Source: Bacillota bacterium (lineage in GTDB: Bacteria > Bacillota > Dethiobacteria > DTU022). Taken from it: a stretch of 52,882 bases of DNA. The stretch is taken from contig JAUWPV010000012.1 of assembly GCA_030611385.1 (NCBI GenBank), forward strand, positions 1 to 52,882. The letters are read 5' to 3'. Shown one piece after another: positions 13,334 to 50,078 of the stretch. A program made the position numbers and the translations under genes. Position 1 is the stretch's first letter; each line of letters starts with the position of its first letter. The notes beneath the pieces were generated by a model that was not told where the DNA came from, made no database searches, and saw nothing but the letters and a program-made list of their open reading frames with translations.

Positions 13334-14828
13334 GTAGTAGAAACGCTGCCGTCAGACGCGACAGGGTATAAACAATATTGTTTGGTGTTAAACCGAAAAT
13401 GATAGTACACAGGGCCAGAATAATCATTGCGGACAACATACGCGGCGATGCTTCTGCTATAGTGAAATGAAGTTTGTCATGACTATGAAGATCATAATTA
13501 CTCCCGTCTGGCAGTTCGAAATAGGCCGGAATAATAATCGGCAAGTAATAAAGAGCATTCAGGAGGCTACTAACCAGCAACACAAAAACATATAGAGGCA
13601 TGTTCGCATCAAGGGCACCCAAGGCCAAAGTCCACTTGCTTAAAAAACCGTTCAGCGGTGGTATGCCGATCATGGCCAGAGCAGCGATAGAAAAACAGCC
13701 CATGGTTACAGGCATCTGCCGGCCAATACCCTTCAAGTCGGCAATCTGGCGTTTGCCGGTTTTCCAGATGATCGCTCCGGCTGCAAGGAAGAGTGTGCTC
13801 TTCATAAAAGCATGGCTGAATATATGAAAAACCGCGCCGATTACTGCATTACTATTGAGAATACTTAACCCGAGCAAAACATAACCTAACTGGCTAATGC
13901 TAGAATAAGCAAGACGACGCTTGATGTCGGTTTGGGTCAGGGCAACTGCTGAACCGAGCAGAATAGTGATTACCGCCAGCACACTTAAAACATGATCCCA
14001 ACCGCTGCTCTGCAGCAGGTCCGGTGAAAAAACGTAAAAGATTACCCGCACTATACCGTAAGCGCCGGTTTTCAGCATTACCCCAGAGAGCAAAGCGCTG
14101 GCCGGAGATGGAGCCACCGGGTGAGCATCAGGCAGCCAGACATGTAGAGGGAACATACCCGCTTTCATGCCAAAGCCAATCAAAAAACAGATAAAAGCAA
14201 GAAACGCCAGCAGAGAACTTTCGTGAATAATCTCCCCCACACCCAGCGAAACGGTTCCACCTAACTCAAAGACGATGATTATGCCGAAAAAGATGGCCAA
14301 CCCACCGATGATGGTCATTACCAGGTATTTATACCCTGCTTTTAATGCTTCCTCTGTTTCTTCATGAATGATCAGGATATAAGCAATTAACGACATTAAT
14401 TCAAAAAAGACAAAGAGGCTGAAAAGATCTCCGGCAAAAAAGATACCCTGGCAGCTGCCGAGGGTAAAGATTAGCACCGGATAATAGCGACTGGTGGCAT
14501 GTTCTTTAGCCATATAGTCGATTGAATAAACAGTGCACAAAAACCAGATAAAAGAAGCCAGGGCAGCAAGGCAAAAGCTTAAAAGATCAAGCCGCAGTGA
14601 TATTTCGAGGTTCGGTAATATTTCAAACAGCTTATGCTGGACTACCCCTCCGCCGGCTATAGTGGGATAAAGGGATAAGGTTAACAAGAAGGCAATCGCA
14701 GAAGTTGCTACAGCCAGGATATTACGTAATTTATCCGAAACCCGGCTGGAATACAGGATGATCGGAGTCATAATGATCGGAAATGCCACGATAAAGATTA
14801 TAATTGTAATAATTGTTGTGTTATCCAA
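13317..14828 (-). CDS. Mrp-type cation/proton antiporter subunit (MrpD-like, second copy)
   Basis: This is an antiporter-family membrane protein of about 503 residues with 14 or so predicted helices. It carries the hallmark segment FLIGFGMKAGMFPLHVWLPDAHPVAPSPASALLSG, quoted here only as its family pattern (conserved Lys in GMKAG, and the H/P-rich loop). I chose the TTG at 14828, behind GGAGGTGG, over the TTG at 14843 that lies inside that ribosome site. It ends HGGGL inside a G run that also contains the start of the next antiporter gene. It is one of three such subunits in a row. Confidence 0.88.
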   Translation of the reverse strand: MDNTTIITIIIFIVAFPIIMTPIILYSSRVSDKLRNILAVATSAIAFLLTLSLYPTIAGGGVVQHKLFEILPNLEISLRLDLLSFCLAALASFIWFLCTVYSIDYMAKEHATSRYYPVLIFTLGSCQGIFFAGDLFSLFVFFELMSLIAYILIIHEETEEALKAGYKYLVMTIIGGLAIFFGIIIVFELGGTVSLGVGEIIHESSLLAFLAFICFLIGFGMKAGMFPLHVWLPDAHPVAPSPASALLSGVMLKTGAYGIVRVIFYVFSPDLLQSSGWDHVLSVLAVITILLGSAVALTQTDIKRRLAYSSISQLGYVLLGLSILNSNAVIGAVFHIFSHAFMKSTLFLAAGAIIWKTGKRQIADLKGIGRQMPVTMGCFSIAALAMIGIPPLNGFLSKWTLALGALDANMPLYVFVLLVSSLLNALYYLPIIIPAYFELPDGSNYDLHSHDKLHFTIAEASPRMLSAMIILALCTIIFGLTPNNIVYTLSRLTAAFLLHGGGL

Positions 14829-49456: not shown

Positions 49457-49520
49457 AAAAAACAACACCCCCTGTATTCCGTTACCGCTGTCACGCACAG
49501 CAATAGCATACAGAGGGTGT
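49457..49520 (-). terminator. large structured terminator of the mini-lipoprotein transcript
   Basis: A 13-bp stem with one mismatch (49465-49477 with 49508-49520) encloses an inner GCTGT/ACAGC hairpin (49487-49501). On the minus strand it is followed by TGTTTTTTATATAG. The complexity exceeds a simple terminator and could be functional RNA structure. Confidence 0.7.
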
Positions 49521-49563
49521 GAATATCTCTTCTGACGGGTCGAACCGACCCGGGTTTAAACTA

Positions 49564-49644
49564 TCAGCCTCCTGTGGAACACCCGGCAAGCAGCAGCATT
49601 GTCATTAAAATCAGGGCTAAAAACACAAGGTTGACCCGACGCAT
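49564..49644 (-). CDS. 26-residue miniature lipoprotein
   Basis: This short reading frame has 26 codons plus stop. The peptide begins MRRVN, then a hydrophobic stretch of about 15 residues, then the lipobox LLAGC and the end STGG. If processed by signal peptidase II, the mature product is a lipidated pentapeptide Cys-Ser-Thr-Gly-Gly. ATG 49644 follows GGGGAGG seven bases away. A near-consensus promoter is 31 bases upstream and a strong terminator lies downstream, so this is a complete independent unit. I do not recognise a family. Possible roles are a peptide signal, a membrane-stress lipoprotein or a small RNA with a coding part. Confidence 0.72.
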   Translation of the reverse strand: MRRVNLVFLALILMTMLLLAGCSTGG

Positions 49645-49674
49645 CGAAGAACCTCCCCTTTTTATTATTTATTG

Positions 49675-49703
49675 ATTCTATTAATAGCATAATTGTTTGT
49701 AAA
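49675..49703 (-). promoter_or_regulatory. sigma-A promoter of the mini-lipoprotein gene
   Basis: On the minus strand TTTACA (49703-49698), exactly 17 bases, and TAGAAT (49680-49675). The start is near 49668. The transcript would be about 210 nt, ending at 49457. Confidence 0.75.
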
Positions 49704-49749
49704 TGGCAACCAAAGTAGAACAAACAACAGCACCCAGGCATTACGATCA

Positions 49750-50078
49750 ACTGTTTATGTTAACTAATAAATAAATTTAAATAAGTAGATGCCGTAAATA
49801 CAGCCTTTTTTATTAGCAAATACCTGTTCTACTAACAATATACACAGGGTTATCCACAGGCTAAAGCCTTTTTCCCTATTCTAAAAGTCTATTATCCACA
49901 AAATTTATAGTTTAGTGACCATAATGCTGCCTGAGATACTTATATAAAGGTGGCATACTAATTGATAAACCTAAACAAAGAGTATAAAAAAAGTTCCCTG
50001 AAAAAAAGGGATAATGAATTCCTTAGCGAATAAGTTTCTATTGAAATTACCTGTTTTTTAATTTAAGGAGGCATCAGC
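49750..50078. other. AT-rich gene-free stretch with two DnaA-box sequences
   Basis: No reading frame with a ribosome site was found here. It contains TTATCCACA at 49850-49858 and again at 49892-49900, same orientation, 42 bases apart. A near match (ATATACACA) lies just before the first. A weak promoter-like pair TTGATA-N15-TATAAA (49962-49988) may serve the ferredoxin gene. A short hairpin (TCCCT/AGGGA) follows near 49995-50011. Confidence 0.5.

Follow-up and report, generated by a model that had tools for sequence, protein, structure and literature searches.

E. coli fdhF is the classic case of an FdhA SECIS, and Cys-containing homologs are the usual supporting criterion for new selenoproteins. 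A 2026 inventory of prokaryotic selenoproteins lists 119 families and subfamilies, of which most are redox enzymes or have redox folds and none is a lipoprotein (PMC13188914). Families with a C-terminal selenocysteine (Sec) include KCU-star (NF033934) and SaoC (NF040734, 'Cys-Cys-COOH'), and the selenobacteriocin precursors (TIGR04081) carry an SGUG motif and two Sec residues, with no lipobox described (PMC13188914). In the bSECIS model, the hairpin has a loop of 3-9 nt, a stem of 4-16 bp and a G in the first two loop positions, is located 16-37 nt from the UGA and has an energy of -7.5 kcal/mol or lower (PMC13188914, Fig. 2A).

Small lipoproteins such as LptM (NF047847) and the colicin lysis proteins (PF02402) combine a lipobox signal sequence with a short mature part. 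No seleno-lipoprotein was found in literature searches, and no small bacterial lipoprotein of the LptM or colicin-lysis kind is known to carry Sec. Peptides cut from lipoprotein signal sequences act as signals in Enterococcus, and the cAD1-type precursors are full-length lipoproteins.

The window, the whole 52,882-nucleotide stretch of DNA analysed here, contains a mini-gene on its minus strand (Table 1). Its frame at 49644..49564, read up to the UGA, corresponds to MRRVNLVFLALILMTMLLLAGCSTGG, and translation with TGA as U gives MRRVNLVFLALILMTMLLLAGCSTGGU*. The mini-gene forms a unit by itself: it has a terminator of its own, and no gene follows downstream on the same strand. The preliminary description had proposed that the unit is complete and encodes a tiny lipoprotein of the kind that gene finders miss, which is borne out by the conserved frame and lipobox. 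The ribosome site and the terminator that it named are both present, the latter as a long stem with a U-run in the fold. Its 26-residue frame with the LAGC lipobox also holds, but the frame does not simply end at the UGA, which is best read as Sec, and its mature product CSTGG omits the last and most telling residue.

Table 1. Features of the mini-gene unit in the window
Feature	Position	Strand	Evidence
Putative selenolipoprotein coding frame, 27 residues + stop	49561..49644	-	Translation with TGA=U; frame in 31 genomes; purifying selection
Promoter TTGCCA-N17-TATTAAT with weak TTAATA-like half-site just downstream	49680..49709	-	23 upstream regions aligned
Ribosome binding site GGGGAGG	49653..49659	-	Sequence; homologs G-rich at the same place
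Lipobox L-A-G-C	49576..49587	-	Cys in 31/31; preceding residue Gly in 29/31
Cys, predicted lipid attachment site	49578-49576	-	Within lipobox L-A-G-C
UGA, probable selenocysteine codon	49564..49566	-	TGA in 31/31 homologs; TGA ends 8/46 window genes
UAG, probable real stop codon	49561..49563	-	Stop directly after UGA in 31/31
SECIS-type hairpin CGGGUCGGUUCGACCCG	49536..49552	-	bSECIS fit; covariation; background counts
Long intrinsic terminator	49457..49521	-	Fold: long stem with U-run; terminator-like stems in most homologs

Searching relatives for the frame and lipobox, the check proposed in the preliminary description, recovered the unit in 31 genomes. These consist of 29 of the 43 genomes of the window's family, a tally that includes covariance-model searches, and two genomes in a distant family of the class; the first protein search for the tiny frame covered 60 relatives. 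In covariance-model searches, the unit was absent from the sampled four other families of the order, and no further true member was found in a sample of 398 phylum genomes. Weak model matches in G370 and G104 (outside the class) and in G047 (within the order) are located inside unrelated sequence and were rejected as chance. A DNA-level search for relatives and a plasmid search returned essentially nothing, as the sequences are too diverged. The frame recurs at an orthologous position in many relatives, far beyond what chance would give. In the close genera, the unit is always located between a convergent M24 peptidase gene and a divergent ferredoxin gene, in the order TetR-FadB-FadA-PepP-unit-ferredoxin-MurE-like; in the distant family, it is found in another gene setting. 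Most named records at the carrier loci come from metagenome assemblies labelled 'Syntrophomonadaceae bacterium', many of which have isolate names that refer to sediment, and several carriers are incomplete assemblies.

The frame extends over 25-29 codons before the UGA across the homologs and is under purifying selection, with pN/pS values of 0.30-0.67 in the nine least diverged pairs. The residue preceding the lipobox Cys is Gly or Ala, and position -3 is Leu, Met, Ile or Val, in 31 of 31 homologs, which share ancestry and do not amount to 31 independent cases. The Cys is followed in every homolog by 2-6 residues, mostly Gly, and then by the UGA. The tail is mostly C-x-x-G-G, and the mature peptide has 4-8 residues, most often six. 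Conservation peaks at the lipobox, the C-terminal tail and the UGA with its hairpin, and the remaining signal sequence is little conserved beyond its hydrophobic character.

This pattern bears on two other readings of the unit. A small RNA with an incidental frame would fit a short conserved transcript with two hairpins. However, the frame keeps its length, lipobox and tail although hardly any DNA identity remains, and an Rfam search at gathering thresholds found nothing at the mini-gene locus, so that a small RNA deserves hardly any weight. The cAD1-type signalling role raised in the preliminary description, in which the active product would be a peptide cut from the signal sequence, draws on the lipoprotein signal sequence shared with the Enterococcus pheromone lipoproteins and on the known activity of such peptides there. 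It finds no support in the distribution of conservation, since the signal region outside the lipobox is less constrained than the tail. The conserved element of the mini-gene is the mature tail with its putative Sec, in contrast to the full-length cAD1-type precursors. A pheromone precursor would also leave the UGA and the SECIS without a role, no receptor or mating gene is present among the neighbour genes, and the idea is exceedingly improbable.

The second in-frame stop directly after the TGA is TAR in 30 homologs and TGA in one. TAA and TAG are the preferred stops of the genome, and none of the eight window genes terminated by TGA continues with TAR. The hairpin is found behind the UGA in all 31 homologs, begins 6-13 nt after the frame ending and places its loop 17-23 nt after the UGA; in the window, the loop GUU begins 18 nt past the UGA. 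Of 28 hairpins, all 28 conform to the four bSECIS rules on layout and 25 to the rule on energy, with -10.6 kcal/mol for the window hairpin and values weaker than -7.5 kcal/mol in G034, G002 and G007. Among the 23 hairpins of common loop length, all six stem pairs vary on both sides while the loop G-U is invariant. Paired cells reach 97.7%, compared with 84.4% in shuffles, and the covariation score was reached by 0 of 500 shuffles. The G-U pairs in the stem point to an RNA rather than a DNA site. In 213 kb of the window's genome, a comparable hairpin occurs at 0.34% of all TGAs and at only one of 246 TGATAR sites, that of the mini-gene, whereas 26 of 28 units pass the same strict hairpin test. 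No homolog with Cys at the Sec position was found in the class and the phylum sample, which were searched with a model that contained the TGA.

The same features could belong to an ordinary tiny lipoprotein with mature product CSTGG, with UGA-UAR as a tandem stop and a hairpin that serves to stabilise the end of the mRNA or to aid termination. No recoding would be needed, tandem stops exist and a terminator follows. However, the first stop is invariably TGA in a genome that prefers TAA and TAG, and the hairpin lacks a U-run, is positioned at SECIS distance and keeps a SelB-type loop while its stem changes. Together with the rarity of such hairpins at TGATAR sites, these observations make a tandem stop improbable.

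The window's genome contains a tRNA-Sec gene (70 bits; anticodon tca confirmed by ARAGORN) and SelB (386 bits with the curated model); selB belongs to a selA-selB-selD operon, in which SelA and SelD were recognised by sequence beside selB. SelB scores over the cut-off in 36 of the 43 family genomes, and genera without the unit also carry it. In G062, which is 71% complete, the unit is present and neither SelB nor tRNA-Sec exceeds the cut-off. The SelD of the window's genome (L249:8258) has an in-frame TGA and carries Sec, and the formate dehydrogenase FdhA (G000:C21, L250) has an in-frame TGA with the loop GGUCU 18 nt downstream. Twelve ArsC-like proteins of the class with one in-frame TGA were fetched, and the hairpin loop starts with GU in 11 of the 11 for which the TGA context was recovered. 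The SECIS likeness to FdhA and the ArsC-like genes indicates that the mini-gene relies on a decoding signal of the kind found in the standard Sec genes of these bacteria. The invariant TGA, the SECIS-type hairpin and the Sec machinery together argue that the UGA is read as Sec. On this sequence evidence, we put the probability that the unit encodes a selenolipoprotein with Sec as its last residue at about 0.9.

In the distant family, roughly 80-90 nt separate the unit from a Sec-containing ArsC-like gene upstream of it. An FMN-binding lipoprotein and a DUF3179 protein are also encoded nearby, and these neighbours hint at redox work outside the cytoplasm. The ArsC-like gene is widespread in the class and was not found in G000, and it is therefore not linked to the unit; co-occurrence with the Sec-containing ArsC-like protein was rejected because the distribution of the gene in the main family does not follow that of the unit. 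ArsC/Spx-like genes with an in-frame TGA in the context YCFPA-U-RTC were observed at L286:8920-9270 and L287:1984-2334, immediately ahead of the unit in the distant family. Two relatives each appear to have two tRNA-Sec genes (G019:C177:13535-13624 and 14421-14510; G024:C138 and C158). A molybdenum/tungsten cofactor riboswitch (RF01055) on the plus strand (1006-1130) precedes a lipoprotein gene in what looks like a transport operon.

Alignment of the upstream regions from 23 genomes shows a conserved promoter pair, mostly TTGCnA-N17-TATTAAT and usually followed by a ATTAATAA-like half-site. The window hexamers are TTGCCA (49709-49704) and TATTAAT (49686-49680) on the minus strand. The pair TTTACA-17-TAGAAT proposed earlier does exist but lies 6 nt off and is not the conserved one. 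A promoter scan found 2 promoter-like sites, compared with 3.8 expected in shuffled sequence. A palindrome-like element, TTATTAATAnnATTAATAA, at 49668-49686 overlaps the -10 region of the mini-gene in most homologs and is possibly an operator for some regulator. The intergenic gap that separates the mini-gene from the ferredoxin gene (49720-49960) contains two perfect DnaA boxes (49850-49858 and 49892-49900) and a block that is near-identical across the family (minus strand, CCTGTGGATAACcCTGTGcATAyTGT...AGAACaGGtATTTG). The gap may represent a DnaA-regulated promoter or a DnaA-box cluster. Its candidacy as a replication origin was rejected: judged by GC skew, the origins of G000 and G005 are located at dnaA, and no lasting change of skew sign occurs at the mini-gene locus in G005.

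In the proposed mechanism, the ribosome would read the mRNA to the UGA, where SelB on the 3'-UTR hairpin would deliver Sec-tRNA, and the UAG would then terminate translation to yield ...LLAGC-S-T-G-G-Sec. The signal sequence would direct export, and lipoprotein processing, for which Lgt and LspA are expected in Bacillota, would lipidate Cys22 and cleave before it. The insertion of Sec and the attachment of lipid to the peptide are both inferences. The predicted end product is a membrane-anchored lipid-Cys-Ser-Thr-Gly-Gly-Sec of about six residues, which would expose a free C-terminal selenol outside the cytoplasmic membrane.

Because the UGA adds exactly one residue, failed decoding would leave the peptide one residue shorter. 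Such a small change to the product, at little cost when decoding fails, would also suit a selenium-status device, a sensor or sink in which the UGA and SECIS capture SelB-Sec-tRNA and decoding or termination matters rather than the selenopeptide. A SelB-binding hairpin with a regulatory role is known from E. coli selAB. However, the mini-gene has no downstream gene on its strand and ends in its own terminator, and its lipobox and Gly-rich tail are kept at the protein level, which a pure sensor would not need. We consider a device of this kind very improbable.

The selenolipoprotein itself, with a mature peptide of 4-8 residues, offers no fold from which to infer function. Held by a lipid anchor and a flexible Gly-Gly arm, the terminal selenol would reach only the membrane surface. 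It is from this geometry that we tentatively propose, at somewhat less than even odds, the role of a membrane-tethered selenolate that engages in redox exchange with a partner protein of the membrane or traps peroxides or soft metals, on the outer side of the cytoplasmic membrane.

Among described systems, KCU-star and SaoC resemble the mini-gene in having Sec at or next to the C-terminus, as judged by name and motif, a placement for which the SECIS has to lie past the frame or at its end. Their motif is C-U, whereas the mini-gene has G-G-U on a 26-30-residue lipoprotein without a folded domain. Bacterial FdhA shares the arrangement of a UGA followed by a hairpin with a GGUCU-type loop 18 nt on, but is a large enzyme with an internal Sec, unlike the mini-gene product, in which Sec would be last and the SECIS is in the 3' UTR. 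The selenobacteriocin precursors are likewise short gene-encoded Sec peptides. An NCBIfam scan gave no match of the mini-gene product to NF033934, NF040734 or TIGR04081. Pfam and NCBIfam profiles recorded only signal-peptide likeness, and the scores for LptM and PF02402 were far below the curated cut-offs and reflected the signal sequence only. Given no profile match and no lipoprotein in the inventory, we call the mini-gene a putative new selenoprotein family with a new architecture, for which C-terminal Sec has precedents by name.

Genes of this class escape annotation for two reasons: gene finders pass over frames so short, and the Sec codon resembles their stop. The unit provides a searchable signature that consists of a short lipoprotein frame, a UGA, an immediate stop and a SECIS in the 3' UTR. 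If the selenolipoprotein reading is true, the mature selenopeptide of 4-8 residues would have no room for a fold and would be anchored to the membrane by its lipid. Sec decoding would then be worth its cost for just one selenol on a lipid tether. Whether a free-standing lipid-C-x-x-G-G-Sec is in itself a complete functional selenoprotein without a folded domain is evenly balanced in our estimate; it would then act as a minimal redox or metal-trapping agent at the membrane surface and be one of the smallest selenoproteins encoded by a gene.
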